Shown here: positions 3 to 13,888 of the stretch, piece by piece | Layout: each line of letters starts with the position of its first letter | Position numbering within the stretch: the stretch's first letter is position 1 | DNA from: Hyphomicrobium album | Lineage (GTDB): Bacteria; Pseudomonadota; Alphaproteobacteria; Rhizobiales; Hyphomicrobiaceae | DNA length: 64,000 bases | NCBI RefSeq assembly: GCF_009708035.1 | Contig: NZ_WMBQ01000001.1 | Span: forward strand, 2,113,501 to 2,177,500 | Direction: 5' to 3' | Position numbers and translations under genes: made by a program | Notes under the pieces: model-generated | What the model saw: the letters and a program-made list of their open reading frames with translations, nothing else | Databases searched by the model: none | What the model was told of the DNA's origin: nothing

Positions 3-707
3 CTTGAGGGTCAGCGCCGCATCGGTGCGCCGGTGGAGCTTGCAGCAAACTACTATGCGCAGGGCGTCGACGAGGTGCTGTTCATGGACTCGGTCGCCAG
101 CCTATATGGGCGTAGCAATCTATTCGATACGATAACCGAAGCGTGCAAGCAGGTGTTCGTGCCGATAACCATCGGTGGTGGCCTGCGCAGCGTCGAGGAC
201 GTGGAGCTTGCGCTGGCCGCTGGTGCCGACAAAGTGGCGGTGAACAGCGCGCTCGTGCGTACGCCGGAGCTGGCGACCCAGATCGCGACGCTCTATGGCC
301 GCCAGTGCCTAGTGGCGTCCATAGAGGCTAAGCGCGTCGCGAGCGGCTGGGAAGCCTACATCAGCAACGGTCGTGAGCCGACTGGTCGTGACGTTCTTGA
401 TTGGGTTCGCGAGCTTGAGCGGCGGGGAGCGGGCGAGATTCTGCTGACGTCGGTTGATCAAGAAGGAACGCAGCGCGGCTTTGATATCGAGCTCTGCGAG
501 GCTGTTGAGAAAGCCGTACGCATTCCTATTGTTGCCTCGGGAGGAGCGGGCAAGGTGCGGCATCTGTCACAGCTTGATCAGACGGTGCACCTGCAGGGCA
601 TCGCGATCGCGTCTTTGCTGCACTATGGAAAGGCCACGGTGGCGGAGCTGAAGTCGGCCCTCTCGGACGCTCACGCGAGGAAGTGGGTTGGTGCGTGCTC
701 GCAATAA
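3..707 (+). CDS. hisF: HisF-like cyclase subunit paralogue 1 (5' partial)
   Basis: The reading frame is open to the left edge of the window (the residues before the internal GTG at 33 read LEGQRRIGAP, as expected inside HisF), so the gene is cut off and lacks its N-terminus. It is a (beta/alpha)8 phosphate-binding barrel of the HisF family, with the ammonia-channel/PRFAR-type landmarks GGGLRS, ADKVAVNS, GAGEILLTS and VASGGAG. The second catalytic aspartate of true HisF (TmHisF D130, normally in AID) is glutamate here (ASIEAK), whereas the D176 equivalent (SVDQEGT) is kept. It overlaps the following hisH by 13 bases and sits in a nonulosonic-acid operon, so I infer that it is the surface-glycan paralogue that relays ammonia to an N-acetyl-sugar amidotransferase rather than a histidine-biosynthesis enzyme. 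A matching amidotransferase may lie upstream of the window. Confidence 0.85.
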   Translation, partial: LEGQRRIGAPVELAANYYAQGVDEVLFMDSVASLYGRSNLFDTITEACKQVFVPITIGGGLRSVEDVELALAAGADKVAVNSALVRTPELATQIATLYGRQCLVASIEAKRVASGWEAYISNGREPTGRDVLDWVRELERRGAGEILLTSVDQEGTQRGFDIELCEAVEKAVRIPIVASGGAGKVRHLSQLDQTVHLQGIAIASLLHYGKATVAELKSALSDAHARKWVGACSQ

Positions 708-1309
708 TTGACTATGGCCTAGGCAATGTTCGCAGCGTCCTGAACGCCCTTGAGCACATCGGCGCGAAAGCTTCCATCACGCGTGACGCAGCAGTTCTCA
801 AAAGCGCCGACGGTCTCATTCTACCTGGCGTTGGCGCATTCGGCGCCGGCATGAGTCGCTTGCGGCAATACGGTCTCGCTGACTTGATCACGCGGATGGT
901 GGGTGAGGGACGACCACTCCTCGGGATCTGCCTTGGATTTCAAATGCTGATGCGTTCGAGCACGGAGGATGGCGAGACCGAGGGGCTCCACCTGATGCCG
1001 CATCCGGTCGTAAGGTTGCCGGTCGAAGCCCGTCTGCCCCACTATGGCTGGTCGCAGGTCATCTCTGAATCACGCGAGAAGGCTCCCGCCCTCATGAAGG
1101 GACTGGAAGGAGATTGGTTCTACTTCGTGCATAGCTACGGTGTCGTTCGGCCCCAGGCGCCAATGGTTGGCGGAATTACCCGGTACGATGGTTGTGAGCT
1201 CCTTGCGCTGGTCGAGCATGGGAATGTTTTCGGCACCCAGTTCCATCCGGAGAAGAGCGGCGAGGCGGGTCTCGAGATGCTCCGCAATTTCGTGGATTTG
1301 GTGCGGTGA
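695..1309 (+). CDS. hisH: HisH-like glutamine amidotransferase paralogue 1
   Basis: This is a class I glutaminase of the HisH family. From glutamine it releases ammonia, which the HisF partner channels onward. The nucleophile elbow GICLGFQM carries the catalytic Cys, and TQFHPEKS carries the His and Glu of the triad. The PGVGAF oxyanion segment and FVHSYG are also present, and the length (204 residues) is normal for the family. I chose GTG at 695 because it gives the family N-terminus MLAIIDYGLGN; a longer GTG start at 683 is possible. An AGGAA stretch lies about 12 bases upstream of 695. It overlaps hisF at its 5' end and the next gene by four bases (GTGA), so translation is probably coupled. 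The context points to amidino-group formation on a sugar rather than histidine synthesis. Confidence 0.88.
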   Translation: MLAIIDYGLGNVRSVLNALEHIGAKASITRDAAVLKSADGLILPGVGAFGAGMSRLRQYGLADLITRMVGEGRPLLGICLGFQMLMRSSTEDGETEGLHLMPHPVVRLPVEARLPHYGWSQVISESREKAPALMKGLEGDWFYFVHSYGVVRPQAPMVGGITRYDGCELLALVEHGNVFGTQFHPEKSGEAGLEMLRNFVDLVR

Positions 1310-2022
1310 CGGCTGACGGACATACAGGCAAGGGCTATCTGGCGATCGTGACCGCGCGGGCCGGCAGCAAACGCCTGCCGGGAAAAAATGTCAGGGATCT
1401 GTGCGGCAAGCCGCTCTTCGTATGGTCTGTGGCGTCAGCATTGGATTGTCCCGAGATTGCACGGGTCATCGTGACCACCGACTCCCGGGAATATCAGAGC
1501 ATCGCCCGCGAGGCGGGCGCGGATTGCCCGTGGCTACGCGATGCGGCTCTGGCGGCCGACAGCAGTACAAGTGCGGATGTGGTGCGTGATGTGCTGGACC
1601 GGCTCGGTGCCGAATCGGCCACCTACAAAGGTCTCGTTCTCTTACAGCCGACTTCCCCATTGCGGACCGCCGCCGATATTTCGGCCGCGATAGCCTTGCG
1701 AGAGTCGCACGGCGCATCGGCGGTCGTGTCAGTCAGTGAAGCTGAATGTCCACCCGCCTGGGTGGGACGGATCCCGGAAAACCTATGCATGGACGGATTT
1801 CGGAGTTCCGCCCCCGCTGGAAACGCAGGCGGCGGGACGTGGTGGCGGCTAAACGGTGCCGTCTATGTCATCGGCATTGCCGATTTCCTAAGTGCGCACG
1901 ATTTCATGCCGCAAGGCACATTGGCTTACCAGATGCCGCGCGAGCGTTCCGTTGATGTCGATACCGAGTTCGATCTTGAACTCGCTCGGCTTCTGATGAG
2001 CAGAAATAGACGCGGGTCGTAA
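1306..2022 (+). CDS. CMP-N-acylneuraminate-type cytidylyltransferase (NeuA/LegF-like)
   Basis: This protein is predicted to activate a nonulosonic acid (sialic, legionaminic or pseudaminic type) with CTP, giving the CMP-sugar donor. The N-terminal nucleotide-binding signature TARAGSKRLPGKNV is clear, as are LLQPTSPLRT (residues about 105-115) and the C-terminal VDVDTEFDLELA segment typical of the NeuA family. At 238 residues it has family length with no added domain. The GTG start overlaps the hisH stop and the stop overlaps the start of the ABC transporter (TAATG), so it belongs to one operon. A second cytidylyltransferase, PseF, lies two genes downstream, so this one may serve a different nonulosonate. 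The exact substrate cannot be told from the sequence. Confidence 0.85.
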   Translation: MTADGHTGKGYLAIVTARAGSKRLPGKNVRDLCGKPLFVWSVASALDCPEIARVIVTTDSREYQSIAREAGADCPWLRDAALAADSSTSADVVRDVLDRLGAESATYKGLVLLQPTSPLRTAADISAAIALRESHGASAVVSVSEAECPPAWVGRIPENLCMDGFRSSAPAGNAGGGTWWRLNGAVYVIGIADFLSAHDFMPQGTLAYQMPRERSVDVDTEFDLELARLLMSRNRRGS

Positions 2023-3812
2023 TGCACTCTGAGACCTCCTTCCGCAGTGTGATCGCGAGATGCTGGCGCCTTCTGTCGCGCAGAAGACGCATCCAGGTGT
2101 TCATGCTTCTTGTTCTCATGATCGCGTCCACCTTCGCAGAGGTTCTGAGCATCGGCGCCGTGCTGCCGTTTCTGAGCGTTCTGGTCAAGCCGCAAATGGT
2201 CTTCAACCACCCAGCGGCCCAACCCGTGATCAGCGCTCTTGAAATCACCGAGCCGAGGGGCCTACTGCTCCCGATCACGGCATTTTTCTGCATCGTTGTA
2301 GTTGGGGCGACCGTAACGCGGCTCGCGCTCATGCTGGCGCAGACCCGTTTTGGCGCCGCGCTCGCCACCGATTTCAGTATTGCAGCTTACAATCGAACGC
2401 TTTTTCAGCCCTACGCGACCCACGTTTCCAAGAACAGCAGCGAAGTCATTGCGGGCGTGAACAAGGCCGGTCACCTTGGCGAGGCGCTTGTCACGCCGTG
2501 CCTTGTCATCCTGAGTTCGAGCTTCCTGTTGGCGACCATCCTGGCGTTGCTCGTATGGGCCCAGCCGATCGTGGCGATCAGCGCATTTGGGGGATTTGGC
2601 CTGATCTATGCCGGAATAACCTTATTGGCGCGTCATCGTTTGGCGGCCGAGGGTCAGGTCATCAATCGCGAGTCGGGCCGCATGATAAAGGCGCTGCAGG
2701 AAGGGCTGGGAGGGATTCGCGACGTTCTCATTGATGGAAGCCAACACGTCTATACCGGTCTTTTTCGCGGCTCGGTCGCTCCCCTCCATCACTCCAGCGC
2801 AAATATCCTGATCATCAGCCAGAGCCCGCGCTACGCCGTCGAAGGATTAGGCGTCGTGTTGGTGGCCATCATCACTTTCTTTCTGGCCAGTAGAGGCGAG
2901 GGATTCTACGACGCGATTCCGATCCTGGGAGGGCTGGTCGTGGGCGCACAGCGTATGCTGCCGGCTATCCAGCAAGCATATTCCTCCTTTACGTTCCTTC
3001 GGGGCCGGCTCCCGCTGACCGCTGATGCGCTGAGCGTACTGGAGCAGCCACTTCCCGCCTTTGCTCAACAGCCTCCGCCGGCACCCATTCCGTTCAAGCG
3101 GACAATCAGGCTGGATGGTCTGAGGTTCCGCTACACGATAGAAAGACCATGGGTCTTGGATGGTCTTGATCTTACAATCAAAAGGGGGGAGATGGTGGGG
3201 TTCGTGGGGGTCACGGGCGCGGGAAAAAGCACTCTTATTGACATCATCATGGGCCTGCTCGAACCAACGGAAGGATCGCTGCTAGTCGACGGCGAACGTA
3301 TCTCAACTGACAATCAGCGTGCGTGGCAAGCACATATTTCGCACGTGCCACAAGCCATCTACTTGGCGGACGGGACAATCGCTGAGAACATTGCATTCGG
3401 CGTGTTGCCGCATGAAATTGACTTCGGGCGCGTCAAGGTCGCTGCGCGTATGGCGCAGATAGCCGACACGATTGAGGCCTGGGACTCTAAGTACGACACC
3501 GCCGTCGGCGAACGGGGTGTCCGCCTCTCGGGCGGACAGCGTCAGCGGATAGGCATAGCGCGCGCACTCTACAAGCGTGCCGATGTCATCATCCTCGACG
3601 AGGCCACCAGCGCGCTCGATAACGAAACGGAGCAGTCAGTCATGGCGGCCATAGATGGGTTTGGCGCTGAGGTTACGATTATCATGATTGCCCACCGTTT
3701 GACCTCACTCAGGAATTGCGATCGCTTGGTCGAGCTTGCGAATGGAAGGATCGAGCGCATCGGAAGCTACAGCGAGATTGTGGAGAACGCTGTCGCTATT
3801 TCCGGGCATTGA
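2022..3812 (+). CDS. ABC transporter, fused membrane and ATPase domains (PglK/MsbA-type flippase)
   Basis: This is a half-transporter of exporter type. An N-terminal six-helix membrane domain (residues about 1-330, hydrophobic stretches at about 27-47, 80-100, 165-205 and 270-305) is fused to an ATP-binding domain. Walker A is GVTGAGKST near residue 395, the ABC signature LSGGQRQR lies near 501, Walker B is VIILDEAT near 525, and the H-loop is in MIAHRLTS. The size and architecture match PglK/WlaB- and MsbA-like lipid-linked glycan flippases. Because it lies inside a nonulosonic-acid operon with one-base overlaps, I infer that it moves a lipid-linked glycan across the inner membrane. Export of another substrate cannot be excluded. 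Confidence 0.85.
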   Translation: MHSETSFRSVIARCWRLLSRRRRIQVFMLLVLMIASTFAEVLSIGAVLPFLSVLVKPQMVFNHPAAQPVISALEITEPRGLLLPITAFFCIVVVGATVTRLALMLAQTRFGAALATDFSIAAYNRTLFQPYATHVSKNSSEVIAGVNKAGHLGEALVTPCLVILSSSFLLATILALLVWAQPIVAISAFGGFGLIYAGITLLARHRLAAEGQVINRESGRMIKALQEGLGGIRDVLIDGSQHVYTGLFRGSVAPLHHSSANILIISQSPRYAVEGLGVVLVAIITFFLASRGEGFYDAIPILGGLVVGAQRMLPAIQQAYSSFTFLRGRLPLTADALSVLEQPLPAFAQQPPPAPIPFKRTIRLDGLRFRYTIERPWVLDGLDLTIKRGEMVGFVGVTGAGKSTLIDIIMGLLEPTEGSLLVDGERISTDNQRAWQAHISHVPQAIYLADGTIAENIAFGVLPHEIDFGRVKVAARMAQIADTIEAWDSKYDTAVGERGVRLSGGQRQRIGIARALYKRADVIILDEATSALDNETEQSVMAAIDGFGAEVTIIMIAHRLTSLRNCDRLVELANGRIERIGSYSEIVENAVAISGH

Positions 3813-3856
3813 TGGAGTTGACCCTGCAGCGATAGCGCAGGCTTCTGGGAACAAAG

Positions 3857-4567
3857 ATGAACATTGCAGTGATCCCGGCGCGCGGTGGTAGCAAGCGGAT
3901 ACCTGGAAAGAACATCAAGATGTTCTCCGGCAAGCCGATGATCGCCTACGCCATCGCTGCCGCCCGCTCGTCCGGCCTTTTCAAGCACGTCATCGTATCC
4001 ACGGACGACGATGCCATCGTGCGGGTCGCCCAAGACCTGGGAGCTGAGGTGCCCTTCCGCAGACCTACAAACCTTGCTGACGACCACACCCCTACGGTTC
4101 CCGTCATTGCCCACGCCATCGAGGCGTGCGCGAGCCTAGGCTGGAAAATCGACAACGTCTGCTGCATTTATCCTGCCGTTCCCCTTATTGACGTGGGGGA
4201 TTTGCGCGCGGCTCTGGAACTCCTTACCGCGTCCGGAGCCGAGTACAGCTTTCCGGTTGCGGCGTTCCCGTCGGCGATTCAGCGCGCGTTGAAGCTGAGC
4301 AGTTCCGGACTTGTTGCTTCCTACTTTCCTGAGTTCGAACTCGTGCGCACACAGGATCTCGAGCCCGCCTTCCACGACGCGGGCCAATTCTATTGGGGAG
4401 GGCGCGACGCTTGGCTCAATAATCCTCGGGTACACAAGAGTGGGGCTGCTCTCGTAATACCGGCTTGGCGTGTTGTTGACATCGACACACCTGAGGACTG
4501 GGTGCGTGCCGAGATGCTACACCGCGCCATAACATCCTGGACACACCCCGCACAGGCCGACCAATGA
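3857..4567 (+). CDS. pseF: Pseudaminic acid cytidylyltransferase PseF
   Basis: PseF condenses pseudaminic acid with CTP to give CMP-pseudaminic acid, the donor for glycosyltransferases. The signature PARGGSKRIPGKNIK begins at residue 7. The later motifs VSTDDDAI, LADDHTP, YPAVPL and GQFYWGGRDAW are the ones that set PseF apart from NeuA, and the C-terminal VDIDTPEDW is typical. Its 236 residues are normal. It overlaps the next gene, the pseudaminic-acid methylase, by four bases (ATGA). The matching biosynthetic genes pseB, pseC and pseI are on the opposite strand 6-9 kb away. Confidence 0.93.
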   Translation: MNIAVIPARGGSKRIPGKNIKMFSGKPMIAYAIAAARSSGLFKHVIVSTDDDAIVRVAQDLGAEVPFRRPTNLADDHTPTVPVIAHAIEACASLGWKIDNVCCIYPAVPLIDVGDLRAALELLTASGAEYSFPVAAFPSAIQRALKLSSSGLVASYFPEFELVRTQDLEPAFHDAGQFYWGGRDAWLNNPRVHKSGAALVIPAWRVVDIDTPEDWVRAEMLHRAITSWTHPAQADQ

Positions 4568-5181
4568 ACGAGCAGGAAAACTTCTGGGCCACCAAGTACG
4601 CCCGCGAATATATTGAGAACAACGCGAGCTTCGACCACGAGCGCGGCGTTGAGGCTTGGCGGGAGATGCTTGGTAAGGCTACCAACCTCGCATCCATCCT
4701 TGAATGCGGCTGCAATATCGGGCGCAACATCGAGTTCCTGAATGTACTGCTGCCCGACGCTTCGAAGTCGGTTATCGAGATCAGCCAACCTGCGTTCGAG
4801 TATGTGACGCGACGGCATGCGTTGGCGTACGCGTTCAATGGGTCGATCGAGGCATCCGATCTCGACGACACGTTCGACCTCGTCTTCACCATGGGTGTCC
4901 TCATTCACATTCACCCGGACGACCTGCTGAAGACCATGCAGAAAATGTTTGCCTATTCCAGCAAGTACATTTTGTTGGGCGAGTATTTCAATCGGACCCC
5001 TGTCATGCTGGAATATCGCGGCGAGCAAAACAAGTTGTTCAAACGCGACTTCGGAAAGCTATTCGTTGAAAACTTCCAGGTCGAAATAGTCGACTACGGG
5101 TTCCTGTGGGGTCACGTCTACGATGCGGCAGGCTTCGACGACATTACCTGGTGGCTGTTTCGCAGACGGGAGCAGGAATAA
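4564..5181 (+). CDS. Pseudaminic acid biosynthesis-associated SAM methyltransferase
   Basis: This is a short class I SAM-dependent methyltransferase that matches the family usually found beside pse genes. SAM-binding motif I is degenerate: ILECGCNIGRN (residues about 44-54). It is followed by an acidic loop, VIEIS, and by FTMGVLIHIHPDD, a hallmark of this subfamily. Its position directly after pseF with a four-base overlap supports a role in methylating pseudaminic acid or an intermediate, although the modified position is unknown. It ends 47 bases before the second hisH start. Confidence 0.8.
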   Translation: MNEQENFWATKYAREYIENNASFDHERGVEAWREMLGKATNLASILECGCNIGRNIEFLNVLLPDASKSVIEISQPAFEYVTRRHALAYAFNGSIEASDLDDTFDLVFTMGVLIHIHPDDLLKTMQKMFAYSSKYILLGEYFNRTPVMLEYRGEQNKLFKRDFGKLFVENFQVEIVDYGFLWGHVYDAAGFDDITWWLFRRREQE

Positions 5182-5228
5182 GTGCGGGACTAGTGAGCTC
5201 TCGCGTCTCGCATGAATGGTTCCTAAAT

Positions 5229-5858
5229 ATGATCGCGATCATCGACTACGGCATGGGCAATGTCCGCTCGGTTCTCAACGCCTGCGAGAGCCTTGGGGTT
5301 ACGACCGAAGTCACGAGCGATCCCGAGCGGCTGGCCGCAGCCAATGGACTGATCCTCCCCGGCGTAGGCGCCTTTCCCGACGGCATGAAGGCCCTTCGGG
5401 AGCGCGATCTCGTTCGCGTCCTGAACCGAGAGGTGATCGAGTGCCGGAAACCGGTGCTTGGAATTTGCCTCGGCATGCAGATGTTCGCGTCGCAGGGGAC
5501 GGAACATGGCGACCATGAGGGCCTCGGCTGGATAAAAGGGGTGGTGACGCTCATGGACGTGCCTGCGGGGCTACCGGATGTACGCCTGCCGCACATCGGG
5601 TGGAATACTGTGCACTTCACCAAGAGCGATGGAATGTACGCCGGGACGTCAAAGGAAGCCGATTTCTATTTCGTGCATAGCTACGTGCTGGTGCCGGACG
5701 ATCCGACCGTCGTGAGCGGCGAATGCGAGCACGGCGCTCGTTTCGTTGCCAGTGTTCAGCACGAGAATATCTGGGCCACCCAATTCCACCCCGAGAAGAG
5801 CCACAAGAACGGCCTGGCGCTGTTGGGCAACTGGTTCAAGAGCGCCGGCGTATGCTGA
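5229..5858 (+). CDS. hisH: HisH-like glutamine amidotransferase paralogue 2
   Basis: This is the second HisH-type glutaminase of the locus. The ATG at 5229 gives the family N-terminus MIAIIDYGMGNVRS and 209 residues; the open frame extends further upstream but has no family similarity there. The catalytic Cys is in GICLGMQMFAS, and the His and Glu are in TQFHPEKSH. It overlaps the following hisF-like gene by seven bases, as expected for a stoichiometric HisH/HisF complex. With that partner and the adjacent amidotransferase it forms the three-gene set known from Pseudomonas B-band LPS (wbpG-hisH2-hisF2), which converts a sugar N-acetyl group to acetamidino. Substrate assignment here is inference. 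Confidence 0.9.
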   Translation: MIAIIDYGMGNVRSVLNACESLGVTTEVTSDPERLAAANGLILPGVGAFPDGMKALRERDLVRVLNREVIECRKPVLGICLGMQMFASQGTEHGDHEGLGWIKGVVTLMDVPAGLPDVRLPHIGWNTVHFTKSDGMYAGTSKEADFYFVHSYVLVPDDPTVVSGECEHGARFVASVQHENIWATQFHPEKSHKNGLALLGNWFKSAGVC

Positions 5859-6640
5859 AGCCGCGCCTTATTCCGGTTCTCCTGCTGCAGAATGGGCATC
5901 TCGTGCGCAGCGAGCTCTTCAACATCCACCAAATTATCGGCAACCCGGTCCACGAGGCCGAGCGGTTCAATCATTGGGGAGTCGACGAGCTGATCTATCT
6001 CGACATCAGCAGATCGGATGAATACGACCTTCGTCGCGACGACCAGAAGGTGCGTCACCTGAACACCATTACCCGTATCCAGGAAGCCGTGAGCCGCACC
6101 TGCTTCATACCCTTGACGTGGGGCGGGCGTATCCGGACGCTCGATGACATGGCTTCCGCGTTCGCTCACGGCGCCGACAAGGTAGCCGTCAACTCGCAAG
6201 CACTCCGCACCCCCGAGTTGATCGCGCAGGCTTCGATACGATTCGGCAAGCAGGCCATCGTCGTAAGCATCGATGTGCTGCGTCACGGCGACGGCCGATG
6301 GGAGGTGTTCATCGACTGCGGTCGGACGCCGACGGGGCGGGATCCAGTCGATTGGGCGATCGAAGCGGAGAGGCTTGGCGCCGGCGAGATCCTCCTCCAG
6401 AGCATCAATCGCGATGGAACAGGCGACGGTTACGACCTCGACCTAATTCGTGCGGTCGCTGGCGCAGTTCGCATACCGTTGATTGCCTGCAGCGGCGTTG
6501 GCCGCTACGAAGACTACGCGGATGGCCTGCGCTCAGGTGCTGCCGCCGTGGCGGCCGCCAACATCTGGCATTTCAAGGAAATGGCGGACCGCGGGGGAAA
6601 GCGGGCCCTCGTCAGGGCCGGCTTCAACGTGCGTATCTGA
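5852..6640 (+). CDS. hisF: HisF-like subunit paralogue 2 (catalytically altered)
   Basis: This is a (beta/alpha)8 barrel of 262 residues in the HisF family. ATG 5852 overlaps the hisH stop and gives the N-terminus MLKPRLIPVLLLQNGHLV. In true HisF this segment reads CLDV-DGRVVKG, with the catalytic aspartate D11; here that position is leucine. The D130 equivalent is present (VSIDV), while the D176 equivalent is Asn (SINRDGT). Phosphate-binding and channel motifs (TWGGRIR, ADKVAVNS, GAGEILLQS) remain. I infer that it no longer makes imidazole glycerol phosphate but keeps the ammonia channel that links HisH to the downstream amidotransferase, which begins 11 bases later. Confidence 0.88.
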   Translation: MLKPRLIPVLLLQNGHLVRSELFNIHQIIGNPVHEAERFNHWGVDELIYLDISRSDEYDLRRDDQKVRHLNTITRIQEAVSRTCFIPLTWGGRIRTLDDMASAFAHGADKVAVNSQALRTPELIAQASIRFGKQAIVVSIDVLRHGDGRWEVFIDCGRTPTGRDPVDWAIEAERLGAGEILLQSINRDGTGDGYDLDLIRAVAGAVRIPLIACSGVGRYEDYADGLRSGAAAVAAANIWHFKEMADRGGKRALVRAGFNVRI

Positions 6641-6651
6641 AAGGTGCCGGT

Positions 6652-7878
6652 ATGACCGCTGCAGACGCTGCCTTCAGCCGATCTTTGGGGATCAATCCGA
6701 TGAAGTACTGCTCGCGATGCGTTGTGCCAGGCATGTCGGCAGTGCCGTTGACGTTCGATGACAAGGGGGTCTGCTCGGGGTGCCGCGTATCCGACACCAA
6801 GGCTACAATAGATTGGGACAAACGAGGGCGCCTATTGAGGGAACTCGTAGACGAATATCGGACGAGTTCCAACTACGATATCGTCATTCCGGTCAGTGGC
6901 GGCAAAGACAGCTACTACCAGACGCACGTCGCCACCAAGGAGCTCGGCCTCAAGGCGCTGCTCGTCACATATCATGGCAACAACTACTTGCCCGAAGGCG
7001 AGTACAATCTGCAGCGGATGCGGGAGGTTTTCGATGCGGATCACATCATCGTTCGCCCGTCGGTGGAAGCGCTTAAAAAGATGAATCGTCTTGGGTTCAG
7101 AATTCAAGGCGATATGAATTGGCATGCACATTGCGGTATTTTCAGCGCTCCGATCCAGGTGGCGCTCCGCTACAAGGTTCCACTCATCATGTGGGGCGAG
7201 CACGGTTTCCTCGATCTTGGGGGAATGTACTCGCTGAACGATTTTGTGGAGTTCACCGCAAAACACCGTCTTGAGCATCTCCTTCGCGGGTATGATTGGT
7301 ATGACTTCACCGACGAGGGGCTCGAGAAACTGGGTAGACCCGAAGCCAAGGAGGGCTTGACTGCCAAAGACCTGCTTTGGGCAAAATATCCTTCAGACGA
7401 AGAAATCGACAGCATTGGAGTGCGGGGTATCTACCTTGGCAACTTCGTCAATTGGGACGGCAACAGCAATGCGGAGCTCGTGGCGGCCAAGTACGACTGG
7501 AAAGCCTCCGAAGTTCCCTTTGAGCGCACCTATCGCCTCGCCTCGAACCTCGACGACATGCATGAGAACGGAATTCACGATTATCTGAAGTTCGTCAAAT
7601 TCGGGTATGGGCGCGCGACCGATCACTCGTGCAAAGATATCCGTTCGGGGCGCATGACCCGAGATGAAGGCATTGCCATGGTGCGCAAATACGATCATGT
7701 GAAGCCGCGCCGAGACCTCGAGCGCTGGCTGACTTATGTGGACATGAGCGAGGAGGAGTTTGATCGCGTCTGCGATACTTTCCGCGACCCGCGCGTGTGG
7801 CGCATAGAGGATGGTTACTGGGTGAAAGACAACGTCTGGGGCGAGCCGAGCCAGTATGGCAAGGCGCACGTCGCATAA
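6652..7878 (+). CDS. N-acetyl-sugar amidotransferase (WbpG/PseA family)
   Basis: The protein belongs to the PP-loop ATP-pyrophosphatase group that adenylates an N-acetyl group on a sugar and replaces the oxygen with ammonia, giving an acetamidino group. An N-terminal zinc-knuckle-like pair (YCSRC at about residues 18-22 and GVCSGCR at about 41-47) precedes the PP-loop VIPVSGGKDSYYQ near residue 82. NWHAHCGIF, MWGEHG and GYGRATDH are family landmarks. ATG 6652 gives 408 residues; a start at 6700 (MKYCSRC) is also possible. It follows the hisH2/hisF2 pair, which would supply ammonia. Homologues act on pseudaminic acid (PseA) or on aminouronic acids (WbpG). The pse genes favour the former, as inference. 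Confidence 0.87.
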   Translation: MTAADAAFSRSLGINPMKYCSRCVVPGMSAVPLTFDDKGVCSGCRVSDTKATIDWDKRGRLLRELVDEYRTSSNYDIVIPVSGGKDSYYQTHVATKELGLKALLVTYHGNNYLPEGEYNLQRMREVFDADHIIVRPSVEALKKMNRLGFRIQGDMNWHAHCGIFSAPIQVALRYKVPLIMWGEHGFLDLGGMYSLNDFVEFTAKHRLEHLLRGYDWYDFTDEGLEKLGRPEAKEGLTAKDLLWAKYPSDEEIDSIGVRGIYLGNFVNWDGNSNAELVAAKYDWKASEVPFERTYRLASNLDDMHENGIHDYLKFVKFGYGRATDHSCKDIRSGRMTRDEGIAMVRKYDHVKPRRDLERWLTYVDMSEEEFDRVCDTFRDPRVWRIEDGYWVKDNVWGEPSQYGKAHVA

Positions 7879-7896: not shown

Positions 7897-8904
7897 ATGG
7901 CCCTGACCGAAAACGAGATCCGGCCCGACGATCTGATGGCCGGACAGGCGGAGCGGTTTGCGAACGATGTTCGCCGGCTGAACGAGCGGAAGGGCGAGTT
8001 TGTCGTCGCGCCTTGCCCCGCCTGTGGTGGCGAGGAGTTCGAGCCTCGTTTCGGCAAGTACGGCATGTCGTACGTCGATTGCACGCGATGCGGTACGCTC
8101 TATGTGTCGCCGCGTCCGCCCCCATCGGTCCTGGACTGGTACTACGCCAATTCGGAGAACTACGCCTACTGGAACCAGTATATTTTCCCGGCTTCGGAGA
8201 ATGCCCGGCGGGAGAAGATTTTTCGGCCGCGGGCCAAACGCCTAGCGGAGGCGTGCCGCAAATATGATGTCGGCCGTGGGATGCTGATCGAGGTCGGCGC
8301 GGGATTTGGGACGTTCGCCGACTGCGTGCGCGACCTCCAGATATTCGATCGTCTGGTTCTCGTCGAGCCGACGCCCGGTCTTGCCGCGACGTGTCGCGCG
8401 AAGGGGTTCGAGGTTGTGGAGAAGCCAGTCGAGCACATCGACCTCTCCAAATACCAGGCCGATGTCGTGGCGAGCTTCGAGGTGATTGAGCATCTCTTTT
8501 CGCCATTAGAGTACCTAAGAGCTTGCTACAGCGTGCTGCGGCCCGGCGGCATTGTAATGCTCTCCTGCCCCAACTCGCGCGGCTTCGACATCGAGGTTTT
8601 GCAGGAGAACGCGAGCGCGGTGGATGTCGAGCACCTGAATTATTTCCATCCTGCTTCCCTCTCCCATCTCGCGCAACGTTGCGGGTTCGACGTCCTCGAA
8701 ACATCGACCCCAGGTGAACTCGACGCCGAGATCGTTCGGAAGAGAGTCCTCTCGGGGGATTTCAGTCTCGCAGGCGACCGTTTCTTGCAGCGCGTCCTGA
8801 TCGATGAGTGGGACCGTCTCGGCGCAGCTTTCCAGCGGTTCTTGGCCGAAAATCAATTCTCGGGACACTTGACCCTGATTGGCCGGAAGCCCGTTTCCAC
8901 CTAA
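7897..8904 (+). CDS. Class I SAM-dependent methyltransferase with N-terminal zinc-binding motif
   Basis: The first 70 residues carry two CxxC knuckles (CPACGGEEF and CTRCGTLYVSPRP), resembling the metal-binding N-terminus of small-molecule and sugar C-methyltransferases. The SAM domain follows: motif I is LIEVGAGFGTFAD near residue 130, the acidic loop is LVEPTPG, and a post-motif reads ASFEVIEHLFSPLEYLR. A conserved tail, SCPNSRGFD...VEHLNYFHPASL, completes a methyltransferase type-11/23 profile. It is the penultimate gene of the nonulosonate operon, 18 bases after the amidotransferase, so it probably methylates a glycan sugar or its amidino group. The acceptor is unknown. Confidence 0.75.
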   Translation: MALTENEIRPDDLMAGQAERFANDVRRLNERKGEFVVAPCPACGGEEFEPRFGKYGMSYVDCTRCGTLYVSPRPPPSVLDWYYANSENYAYWNQYIFPASENARREKIFRPRAKRLAEACRKYDVGRGMLIEVGAGFGTFADCVRDLQIFDRLVLVEPTPGLAATCRAKGFEVVEKPVEHIDLSKYQADVVASFEVIEHLFSPLEYLRACYSVLRPGGIVMLSCPNSRGFDIEVLQENASAVDVEHLNYFHPASLSHLAQRCGFDVLETSTPGELDAEIVRKRVLSGDFSLAGDRFLQRVLIDEWDRLGAAFQRFLAENQFSGHLTLIGRKPVST

Positions 8905-8928: not shown

Positions 8929-10419
8929 ATGACGAAACTACTGCTCTCCTCGTCGTTGCGCGTCCTCACCGAAGCAGTCAGCGCCCTAGAGCGTGAGGGC
9001 GATGTCGAGGAAACGATCTTGGCCACCTTCGGCGCGCCGCACGGAGAGTATGAAGGCTGGGAACACATCGACCACGCGTTGCTCCTCCAGTCTGGCCTGA
9101 ACGGGACCTTCGAAGGCGTCGATCTCAGATATCTGTCCGTGAATCTGCTTGAAAGCGCCGCGCCGGCGGAAAAGTACATCTACCAAATGATGGATCGGGT
9201 TGATCCCCTAAAGAACCAGACGCATGCCCAGAGGCGATTTCTCTACCATTATCTCCTCTGCTACTGGGCCGCGACGCTCGAAGCAAAGAAGCCAGACGCC
9301 GTTCTGTTCGGCAGCGCGCCCCACGAGGTTTCGGACTTCGTTCTGTATGCGATTTGCAAGAGCCGAGACATACGAACGTTGATATTCAACTACACCCGGC
9401 TTCCGGGCATATGCTTCCTCGGCGTGGACTTTAGCCCGAGTGGCATAATTCCCTCTGGCAGTGACGGGACGCTCGCGCACTCTGCGGCGGTCGACGACTA
9501 CGTCGCAAAGCTTCAGAAGGATTACGCGACAGCAATTCCGACGGACGCCAAAGAGATTCTGCATAATTTCGAAAGCGAAGCCGAACAGAGTAGGCCGAGG
9601 TTGGGCAACCTAAAGACCCTCGCTGGCCGGGTGCTCAACATGGGACGCGCCGGGCTGGCGTTGCTCGCCGAGTTCCAGATGGAGAAGATCAAGGAGTTTG
9701 CGCAGCACAGGCTAAACGGGGCGGAGTGGAGTGCAATAAAATTGGAATACGCCGTGCGGGCAAGCGCGTTCAAGAAGCCGAGACGCTACGTTTATTTTTT
9801 GCTGAACTTCCAACCTGAAAGCACCACGAGCCCGCTTGGCCGCAGGTTCGTCGACCAGTACCTGGCTGTTGCCATGATCGCCAAGTTCCTTCCGGCGGAT
9901 TACGCGATTGTCGTGAAAGAGCACCCGGTCCAGTTCGTAAATTTCAGTCACTACAATCACATTGGCAGAGACAAGAATTACTATGGACGCCTCGCGAGAA
10001 TACAGGGCGTGACGTTTGCTCCATTTGAAGCCGATCACTTCGAGCTGTTGGATGGCTCAATGTGCGTCGCCAGCGTAAACGGTACCGTGGGCTGGGAAGC
10101 TGTGGTGAGGAAGAAGCCGGCGATGGTGTTCGGGGAGGCATGGTACCAAGATGCACCAGGCGTTCTCAAGGTCGAGTCCGACGAAGACTGCGCGCGGGCG
10201 ATCACGCAAATGCTCGGCGGTGTCGTGATCACGGACGATATGATCAGGGGCTTTCTCGAAGGCTTCATGGCCAATTGCTCGCGGTTGTCTTTGAATGAAG
10301 AAGATGCCCGAATTGCTGGTGTGCCATTCGATTTCGACGAGAACGTCGCCGAAGCTAAGAGAATGATCAGACGTGGTCTCCGGGCCGTGCCTCGGTCGTC
10401 CGCCAGCCACTCAATCTGA
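8929..10419 (+). CDS. Putative capsule-type glycosyltransferase (KpsC/KpsS-like)
   Basis: This 496-residue protein has no signal peptide or membrane helix. Its C-terminal half shows KEHP followed by SVNGTVGWEAVVRKKPAM, the histidine-proline and asparagine-glycine-glutamate pattern of the capsule polysaccharide (KpsC/KpsS, Kdo/beta-Kdo) glycosyltransferase fold. A block reading LNFQPESTTSP resembles the family's QPE motif. The N-terminal half (about 1-280) is not familiar. Placement as the last gene of the nonulosonate operon suggests that it transfers the CMP-activated acid, or a neighbouring sugar, to the glycan. This is a remote resemblance only; a sugar-processing enzyme of another type remains possible. 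It converges with pseC, 34 bases away. Confidence 0.55.
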   Translation: MTKLLLSSSLRVLTEAVSALEREGDVEETILATFGAPHGEYEGWEHIDHALLLQSGLNGTFEGVDLRYLSVNLLESAAPAEKYIYQMMDRVDPLKNQTHAQRRFLYHYLLCYWAATLEAKKPDAVLFGSAPHEVSDFVLYAICKSRDIRTLIFNYTRLPGICFLGVDFSPSGIIPSGSDGTLAHSAAVDDYVAKLQKDYATAIPTDAKEILHNFESEAEQSRPRLGNLKTLAGRVLNMGRAGLALLAEFQMEKIKEFAQHRLNGAEWSAIKLEYAVRASAFKKPRRYVYFLLNFQPESTTSPLGRRFVDQYLAVAMIAKFLPADYAIVVKEHPVQFVNFSHYNHIGRDKNYYGRLARIQGVTFAPFEADHFELLDGSMCVASVNGTVGWEAVVRKKPAMVFGEAWYQDAPGVLKVESDEDCARAITQMLGGVVITDDMIRGFLEGFMANCSRLSLNEEDARIAGVPFDFDENVAEAKRMIRRGLRAVPRSSASHSI

Positions 10420-10453: not shown

Positions 10454-12639
<2,186 letters not shown>

Positions 12640-12823: not shown

Positions 12824-13888
12824 TTAGAGGACGACGTCCCACGAAACGGCCGTACCTTTTGCCAGATCGCGCTTCGCGCGGGCGCCAAGCACGACGTTGT
12901 AGAATTTCGGCGGCAAGCCGAAGCCGGGCCGGATGATGCGAAGGTTGCGCGTCGAGAACACATCTCCCGATCGCATGTCCTCGGCCACGTAGAGCGAACG
13001 CCGGTACGCCAGCGACGACACCTCGTTGGCACTGGGTCCGAAAAACACCTTTCCAAGCGATTCGAACGCCTGGCGTGTCTCACGGACCAGCTGCGCGAGT
13101 TCGGCAGGCTCTAGCGAAAACGCGGCGTCCACGCCGCCTTCGGCCCGCGACAAGGTTAGGTGCTTTTCGATGACGGAAGCACCGAGCGCAACCGCGGCGA
13201 CCGACACTCCGATACCTAGCGTGTGATCCGATAGGCCGACCTCGCATTGAAACGCCGTTTTCAGCTCCGGAATGGAAAGAAGGTTCGAGTCGGCCGGGGT
13301 TGCCGGGTAGGTGCTGGTGCACTTGAGCAGCACCAGATCCCTGCAGCCTGACGACCTCGCTGCAGTGACAGCGTCATGGATCTCTCCGATCGTCGCCATC
13401 CCCGTCGAGATAATGACCGGCTTGCCGGTGGCGGCGACTCTGGCAATCAGCGGCAGGTGCACGTTTTCGAAGGAGGCAATCTTGTAGGCCGGCACATCTA
13501 GCGCCTCAAGGAAATCGACGGCTGTCTCGTCGAACGGCGTCGAGAAGACCACGAGTCCGTGCTGACGGGCACGTTGCATGATAGGCCCGTGCCACTCCCA
13601 TGGCGTATGGGCCTCTTGGTACAGGTCGTGCAGCGTTCGACCCGACCACGGGGTATTGCCTTTGACGACGAAGTCAGACGCATTGACGTCGATTGTGAGG
13701 GTGTCGGCGGTATAGGTCTGCAGTTTTACCGCATGAGCGCCGCTCGCGGCCGCCGCATCGACCAGCAACAGCGCACGATCCAGTGAGCCCTTGTGATTGC
13801 CGGACATCTCGGCGATGACAAAAGGGGGATGGCCGGCACCTATCCGCGCCGACTCGATCACAATCGATCCAGTGGTCATTTCGAGCAC
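12824..13888 (-). CDS. pseI: Pseudaminic acid synthase PseI
   Basis: PseI condenses phosphoenolpyruvate with the 6-deoxy-AltdiNAc sugar to make pseudaminic acid. The NeuB-type TIM barrel spans residues about 20-275 (FVIAEMSGNHKGSLDRAL, VKLQTYTADTLTID, STPFDETAVDFLE, ISTGMATIGEI, GLSDHT, EKHLTL). A C-terminal SAF/antifreeze-like domain occupies about 293-354. SGNHKGSL and the IDVNASDF region favour pseudaminic over sialic or legionaminic synthase. It runs in the same direction as pseB but is separated from it by 205 bases, in which I see no other gene, so it may have its own promoter or terminator. Confidence 0.94.
   Translation of the reverse strand: MLEMTTGSIVIESARIGAGHPPFVIAEMSGNHKGSLDRALLLVDAAAASGAHAVKLQTYTADTLTIDVNASDFVVKGNTPWSGRTLHDLYQEAHTPWEWHGPIMQRARQHGLVVFSTPFDETAVDFLEALDVPAYKIASFENVHLPLIARVAATGKPVIISTGMATIGEIHDAVTAARSSGCRDLVLLKCTSTYPATPADSNLLSIPELKTAFQCEVGLSDHTLGIGVSVAAVALGASVIEKHLTLSRAEGGVDAAFSLEPAELAQLVRETRQAFESLGKVFFGPSANEVSSLAYRRSLYVAEDMRSGDVFSTRNLRIIRPGFGLPPKFYNVVLGARAKRDLAKGTAVSWDVVL

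Follow-up and report, generated by a model that had tools for sequence, protein, structure and literature searches.

Two HisH-HisF-amidotransferase triads in one gene cluster of Hyphomicrobium album, most likely serving two different nonulosonates

Described amidination systems and the present locus

In Pseudomonas aeruginosa, the amidotransferase WbpG works with HisH2 and HisF2 on a diacetamido mannuronic acid rather than a nonulosonate, and in Campylobacter jejuni there is one shared extra HisH-HisF pair. Fusobacterium has an amidinated sugar that we take to be fusaminic acid. Here, we describe a gene cluster of Hyphomicrobium album (genome of 3.9 Mb in 3 contigs) at the left end of a 64,000-nucleotide stretch, hereafter the window (C1:2113501-2177500, C1 being contig NZ_WMBQ01000001.1; plain numbers count from the first base of the window). 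The left edge cuts the hisF1 gene, and the first genes of its cassette lie upstream of position 1; the 19 kb to the left was also read, for open reading frames and for cassette 1. The cluster holds two sets of genes for ammonia delivery and amidination, designated triad 1 (WbuX1, HisF1 and HisH1, in cassette 1) and triad 2 (HisH2, HisF2 and WbuX2, in cassette 2). Its WbuX-family amidotransferases would receive ammonia through HisH/HisF, as in the P. aeruginosa WbpG system, while the substrate class differs. These are probably two complete, dedicated triads, the first for a NeuC-NeuB pathway and the second for a pseudaminic acid pathway, that contribute to one surface glycan.

Natural nonulosonates with an amidine group that are named in the literature examined, as far as the available parts of each source extend, are di-amino sugars (legionaminic, 8-epilegionaminic and pseudaminic acids) or, in Fusobacterium, a 9-deoxy sugar. 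They comprise 8eLeg5Am7Ac (PMC7371886), Leg5Am7Ac in Legionella (PMC3766260), acetamidino pseudaminic acid (PMC13317340) and the Fusobacterium sugar, which appears as a title in a reference list (PMC7371886); amidinated hexosamine and hexuronic acid derivatives are also described (PMC3210612). According to excerpts of two papers, Campylobacter likewise has two amidotransferases, the acetamidino synthases PseA and PtmG, for pseudaminic and legionaminic acid (PMC13317340, PMC13130089). In contrast, each amidotransferase here has its own HisH-HisF, and the sugar of triad 1 (sugar 1) has no LegB or LegC over the profile cut-offs. The legionaminic acid of Legionella lipopolysaccharide, with its PtmG homologue, involves the same NeuA, NeuB and NeuC alongside an acetamidino enzyme, but in the sections available its precursor is UDP-diacetylbacillosamine, unlike the route proposed here for sugar 1 (PMC3766260). 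The Fusobacterium sugar, judged by its title, is an amidinated nonulosonate whose name shows no C7 nitrogen, as in predicted sugar 1; it is 9-deoxy, whereas sugar 1 would retain the 9-hydroxyl. No description of 5-acetamidino-neuraminic acid was found in the literature searched, and the accessible portions of PMC3438082, PMC11340318, PMC8055020, PMC13130089, PMC12648312 and PMC3694923 name no amidinated neuraminic acid.

Two complete triads and the pairing of their components

A first-pass annotation of the window, made from its sequence alone, had noticed two HisF/HisH pairs, one of them at the left edge, with a single WbpG/PseA-type amidotransferase in view. Both observations hold: the starts of hisH1 and hisH2 are 4.5 kb apart, and one WbuX-family gene lies inside the window. 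The annotation had also predicted a second amidotransferase upstream, and a WbuX-family gene (WbuX1, C1:2107093-2108295) was found there, ending 5.2 kb before position 1. Its score of 348.3 bits to TIGR03573 (cut-off 203.2) establishes that the predicted second amidotransferase is real. A whole-genome search with the reading frame of the PseA-like N-acetyl sugar amidotransferase WbuX2 (6652-7878, plus strand; TIGR03573 325.3 bits) returned two places, WbuX2 itself and C1:2107225-2108271 (29% identity, E 8.4e-40). Both proteins are TIGR03573 members by score, by the SGGKDS PP-loop and by two CxxC pairs. The glutaminase partners HisH1 (683-1309) and HisH2 (5229-5858), both on the plus strand, score 202.9 and 230.7 bits on TIGR01855 (cut-off 105.4) and retain the GxCxGxQ motif (GICLGFQ in HisH1) and the HPE motif. 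The best NCBIfam matches of the six triad genes, at 203-348 bits, are not attributable to chance. The two amidination steps that had been suggested are thus borne out at the level of genes, as two systems with non-histidine HisF/HisH and two WbuX proteins. Two outcomes had been named beforehand as telling against the prediction, namely the lack of an upstream amidotransferase and placement of pair 1 with histidine genes; both were checked, and neither was observed.

A WbuX over the cut-off occurs in nine of 80 genomes, a set made up of this genome and 79 relatives; this genome is one of the nine, and one other (G012) has a second WbuX match, which is under the cut-off. Plasmid records matching WbuX2 number 14, all below 60% identity and none close.

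The HisF proteins distinguish the triads. The gene hisF1 starts 57 bases upstream of position 1 and ends at 707, and hisF2 spans 5852-6640 (both plus strand); HisF1 has 254 residues. At Asp11 and Asp130 (Thermotoga numbering), presumably the two catalytic aspartates of HisF, all 11 histidine-operon HisF examined have both residues, HisF1 has Asp and Glu, and HisF2 has Leu and Asp, so that each copy is changed at a different catalytic aspartate. Trees were built with FastTree and midpoint-rooted for reading. A tree was made of 98 WbuX sequences, those of at most 250 residues after trimming being excluded; in it, WbuX1 belongs to a clade of 81 (support 0.991) and WbuX2 to a clade of 13 (support 0.981), with four sequences in neither. 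A HisF gene lies within 7 kb of 69 members of the WbuX1 clade and retains Asp11 in 68, the remaining one having an unreadable alignment gap at this position; near the WbuX2 clade, HisF is found within 7 kb in eight cases, all without Asp11 and all with Asp130. In addition, HisF2-type and WbuX2-type domains are naturally fused in one protein in three genomes, of which two belong to the same genus (L180:604-3021, L181:8407-10644 and L183:9583-11646). The fusion proteins are 51-55% identical to HisF2 and 51-55% to WbuX2 and carry the Leu/Asp signature; one was checked by profile. Clade-matched HisF types, together with the fusions, support dedicated ammonia delivery within each of two triads over a common supply, and the HisF signature offers a simple rule for assigning each HisH-HisF pair to its amidotransferase. 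By pairing and by fusion, both are putative acetamidino-type HisF proteins, though not scored members of those families: HisF1 and HisF2 reach 253.8 and 242.9 bits on the WbuZ profile TIGR03572 (cut-off 299.7) and 180.2 and 201.6 bits on the AglZ/HisF2 profile NF038364 (cut-off 310).

The gene neighborhoods differ as well. Triad 1 is accompanied by NeuB, NeuC and its own CMP-sugar synthetase, and triad 2 by PseB, PseC, PseI and PseF; on this gene content, the triads most likely serve two different nonulosonates. In each, HisH would release glutamine-derived ammonia, HisF, its barrel no longer functioning as a cyclase, would relay it, and the PP-loop WbuX protein would use ATP to convert one N-acetyl group of the nonulosonate to acetamidino. 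For triad 1, the most likely route would lead from UDP-N-acetylglucosamine through N-acetylmannosamine and N-acetylneuraminic acid (Neu5Ac) to 5-acetamidino-neuraminic acid. Triad 2 would act in the pseudaminic acid pathway (PseB, PseC, PseI, PseF), and both activated sugars would enter one surface glycan through separate transferases.

The sugar of triad 1

Sugar 1 is most simply read as a product derived from Neu5Ac. The closest relative of NeuB1 (C1:2108305-2109354, upstream of the window) in the PDB is N. meningitidis NeuB (420.4 bits; PseI 8h2c scores 116.7). In a tree of 80 NeuB-family proteins, these two share a clade of 62 (support 0.976), and all five synthases of a legionaminic set lie outside it; the set comprises four loci with both LegB- and LegC-like genes (L120, L126, L129 and L130) and one with the LegC-like gene only (L125). 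A loop at positions 70-85, linked in the available text of PMC7371886 to the C4-C6 end of the substrate, is the same in NeuB1 as in N. meningitidis NeuB and is absent from the five legionaminic-set synthases; its motif was defined after the alignment had been inspected.

To place these genes in a wider frame, relatives of WbuX1 at 61-79% identity in named genomes were collected (127 stretches), and the best 80 were kept as loci. A locus was called type B when it contained NeuC at no less than 39% and no LegB at 45% or above. By this definition 49 are type B, five have LegB at 45% or above, and 26 are neither, some being short contigs. The loop motif is present in 41 of 44 type-B NeuB proteins. 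Whole-genome tests for LegB and LegC covered 48 genomes: 41 with type-B loci (all 49 except L024, L026, L033, L050, L069, L083, L087 and L089) and seven termed type A, namely the five whose locus contains LegB, together with L047 and L076, both from the neither class. LegB is found at E<=1e-55 in six of the seven type-A genomes; as these loci were chosen partly by LegB, this result serves as a control of the profile and not as independent evidence.

The alternative, which we regard as unlikely, is that triad 1 makes 5-acetamidino-legionaminic acid, with NeuC acting as LegG, NeuB1 as LegI, and the diacetylbacillosamine precursor supplied by enzymes encoded elsewhere; the locus would then resemble that of Campylobacter, with acetamidino forms of both pseudaminic and legionaminic acid. 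Consistent with this, excerpts of PMC3766260 have the Legionella NeuC, NeuB and NeuA acting on UDP-diacetylbacillosamine, and relatives of WbuX at 49-52% identity occur in loci with LegB- and LegC-like genes (L120, L126) or the LegC-like gene alone (L125). NeuC (C1:2112279-2113427, upstream of the window) belongs to the hydrolysing 2-epimerase profile TIGR03568 (375 bits, cut-off 235.9), a profile that may also take in LegG enzymes. It scores nearly equally to the GNE-type epimerase 4zht, presumably human, and to the diacetylbacillosamine 2-epimerase 5xvs, presumably from A. baumannii (179.5 and 164.5 bits).

Several further observations weigh against a Neu5Ac-derived sugar. NeuB1 scores 346.9 bits on the NeuB equivalog TIGR03569, under the cut-off of 399.65, and has Ser at N. 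meningitidis NeuB position 184, where Asn and Tyr are the reported Neu residues; none of the five legionaminic-set synthases has the reported Tyr there. The NeuC tree does not group NeuC with GNE and gives no clean separation of NeuC from LegG, and one legionaminic-set locus stands at the base of the clade of NeuC, a placement that is not decisive. Type-A loci carry LegB yet have a Neu-type NeuB, so the type of NeuB alone cannot settle the substrate. Finally, a LegC-class match of at least 300 bits occurs somewhere in nine of the 41 type-B genomes and in just two of the seven type-A genomes, which makes the LegC profile a weak yardstick.

Against the legionaminic alternative stand the NeuB group and substrate loop of the five legionaminic-set synthases, both different from those of NeuB1, and the content of this genome. 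Profile searches of it give no LegC over the cut-off and no LegB (best 119.8 bits, cut-off 475), so the legionaminic pathway, defined by LegB plus LegC, is not recognized there by score. Across type B, 38 of 41 genomes have no LegB-level match; the other three (421-490 bits) each have it on a contig that differs in length from that of the cassette, and a fourth genome, which passes the E-limit at 190.7 bits only, is not counted. Isolates with a type-B locus and no LegB include Methylobacillus gramineus and Sphingomonas sp. Root720. Neither LegB (E<=1e-55) nor a LegC/PseC-class aminotransferase (E<=1e-60) is detected in 18 of the 41, many tested genomes being metagenome-assembled genomes (MAGs) of unknown completeness, for which single absences carry little weight.

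With slightly less than even confidence, we propose more generally that a compact NeuB-NeuC-HisF-HisH-WbuX operon, often with a CMP-sugar synthetase and found in several phyla, makes 5-acetamidino-neuraminic acid, joined here to an amidinated pseudaminic acid from an independent second triad. If so, this sialic acid would carry a positive charge next to its carboxylate, and bacterial sialic acids would have a branch in several phyla with altered charge that is easily missed. In methods based on 1,2-diamino-4,5-methylenedioxybenzene, amidinated neuraminic acid would appear 0.98 mass units below Neu5Ac, a shift expected from the values of 451.18 and 450.20 given for PseAc2 and LegAmAc in PMC7371886.

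The sugar of triad 2

Four genes of the pseudaminic acid pathway exceed their cut-offs. These are pseF, for CMP-pseudaminic acid synthetase (3857-4567, plus strand; TIGR03584 283.3 bits, cut-off 205.7), and, on the minus strand, pseC for the aminotransferase (10454-11608; TIGR03588 529.3 bits, cut-off 423.5), pseB for the 4,6-dehydratase (11605-12618; TIGR03589 506.6 bits, cut-off 407.75) and pseI for pseudaminic acid synthase (12824-13888; TIGR03586 483.2 bits, cut-off 340.25). The full set of PseB, PseC, PseH, PseG, PseI, PseF and PseA is not complete. In profile searches PseG has no match anywhere in the genome, and PseH has just weak GNAT matches (29.8 and 23.7 bits, cut-off 93.1), which count against a working pathway. 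Five PseG and PseH queries in tblastn gave nothing in the window, in the 19 kb upstream or in L128, with a positive control in L177. On these searches, which returned nothing near the top-scoring PseH-like gene, a PseG hidden in the cluster was rejected. No neighbors recognized as Pse genes flank the weak PseH-like gene at C1:1873138. With PseG absent and PseH weak, pathway 2 is incomplete as read: either an unrecognized enzyme performs the PseG and PseH steps, or the pathway is broken.

The relatives of WbuX2 are informative here. Three are 72-76% identical, and two of these lie in clusters that also encode PseB, PseC and PseG-like proteins; the relatives at 72 and 74% lie near PseB and PseC (L177, L178), and L177 additionally has HisH, HisF2, PseG over the cut-off and PseI just under it. 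Both PseB and PseC, at no less than 42%, can be seen in four of 11 loci with WbuX2 relatives (L177, L178, L179, L183). Three of the 11 (L180, L181, L185) have no Pse gene in view, a further point against tying triad 2 to pseudaminic acid.

On the strength of the profile and tblastn results for PseG and PseH, one could suppose that only triad 1 is active and that the pseudaminic half has partly been lost and persists as a remnant. We consider this improbable: PseB, PseC, PseI, PseF, HisH2 and WbuX2 exceed curated cut-offs, HisF2 is full length though under its cut-offs, and no pathway-2 gene has an internal stop.

Alternatives with a single sugar or a histidine function

The first-pass annotation had left open whether the two amidinations fall on two nonulosonates or on two N-acetyl groups of one sugar. 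Gene content points to the former; a single sugar amidinated twice by both triads is rejected on the same grounds, and we rate it as very unlikely. The presence of two triads within one gene cluster would suit it, but the cluster has two synthases, two CMP-sugar synthetases and two candidate transferases. Each triad is also seen elsewhere with the other pathway out of view: WbuX1 triads accompany NeuB and NeuC with no Pse genes (for example L028, L030, L032), and WbuX2 accompanies Pse genes with no NeuC (L177, L178), although certain WbuX1 loci are close to Pse genes (for example L034 and L056).

That HisF1-HisH1 is a spare histidine-biosynthesis pair brought into the cluster has a negligible probability: HisF1 scores marginally better on the histidine HisF profile TIGR00735 than on WbuZ (259.4 and 253.8 bits), but it is under the TIGR00735 cut-off of 294.55, is altered at Asp130 and lies outside the histidine clade, and the genome already has a separate histidine HisF (C1:2483785-2484549, 361.9 bits). 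HisF2, at 216.6 bits, is under the same cut-off, and neither protein qualifies as a histidine HisF by score plus both aspartates. The tree in question contains 101 HisF sequences, duplicates included; those from histidine operons (11, from 10 genomes plus HisF-LUCA of PDB 4evz) separate from the other 90 with support 1.0, and HisF1 and HisF2 fall outside them, in agreement with the earlier view of pair 1. Histidine genes were accordingly ruled out by tree and residues. Both aspartates persist in five of 74 non-duplicate HisF proteins from the WbuX1-search loci and the genome HisF search, so their loss is usual among these and not universal. In 10 searched genomes, HisF matches at E<=1e-40 number three in this one and in that of L063, and two in each of the other eight.

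Occurrence of the modules in other genomes

Hydrogenophaga (L020) and Microcystis elabens (L022) both have the genes from WbuX1 to HisH1, at 58-81% identity, the latter together with the CMP synthetase. In a Leptospiraceae MAG (L063), NeuC-HisF-HisH-WbuX1 is neighbored by PseG/PseH, PseI, a HisF2-type gene and a gene related to that at 8929-10419; no WbuX2, PseB or PseC is shown in this stretch. Two side-by-side modules have thus also emerged or persisted in a second phylum. Between PseG/PseH and PseI (L063:2375-3782), PIG-L-type deacetylase-like and formyltransferase-like genes, named by reading the sequence, suggest that another N-acyl form of pseudaminic acid may be made there.

More than one HisF occurs in only three of the 80 WbuX1 loci (L063, L097 and L035). 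In L097 (591-12265), two WbuX1-type amidotransferases stand in tandem, each with a HisF, the first by PseB/PseC-like genes and the second by NeuB. In another kind of WbuX1 locus (L031, L042, L044, L051, L062), LegB, PtmE-like and LegG-like genes are combined with a Neu-type NeuB; an extra short-chain dehydrogenase/reductase is present in L031 and L042, with LegC not in view. The product of such loci could be an amidinated 9-deoxy sugar resembling the Fusobacterium one.

Remaining genes of the cluster

Cassette 1 comprises, in order, WbuX1, NeuB1, a polysaccharide pyruvyl transferase-like gene (C1:2109318-2110508) and a BFO_1060-like glycosyltransferase gene (C1:2110513-2112282), both upstream of the window, then NeuC, hisF1, hisH1 and the CMP-nonulosonate synthetase gene (1306-2022). 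All are on the same strand and are separated by no more than 15 bases or overlap slightly. The synthetase scores 124.9 bits on the PseF profile, under the cut-off of 205.7, and is 59% identical to the gene in the same position in M. elabens L022.

Between the cassettes lies a PglK/MsbA-type ABC flippase gene (2022-3812, plus strand), under the cut-offs of the families shown. It is followed by pseF, a pseudaminic acid biosynthesis-associated methylase (4564-5181, plus strand; TIGR03587 163 bits, cut-off 112.05), hisH2, hisF2 and WbuX2. Next to WbuX2 are an S-adenosylmethionine-dependent methyltransferase gene (7897-8904, plus strand), an order kept in L177 and L178, and a gene for a Capsule_synth-like protein (8929-10419, plus strand; PF05159 34.6 bits), the candidate CMP-sugar transferase of cassette 2, whose relative in L063 stands beside PseI. 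Its predicted structure, from two sequences, has a mean predicted local distance difference test score of 49.6 and is too poor to use. The genes pseC, pseB and pseI run opposite to the rest of the cluster.

Further upstream (C1:2096660-2100225) are RmlB, RmlA, a 126-residue protein and a DegT aminotransferase, of which only DegT is named by profile. This group probably supplies a dTDP-amino sugar of the same glycan. In Hydrogenophaga L020, relatives of the 126-residue protein and of DegT directly precede WbuX1.

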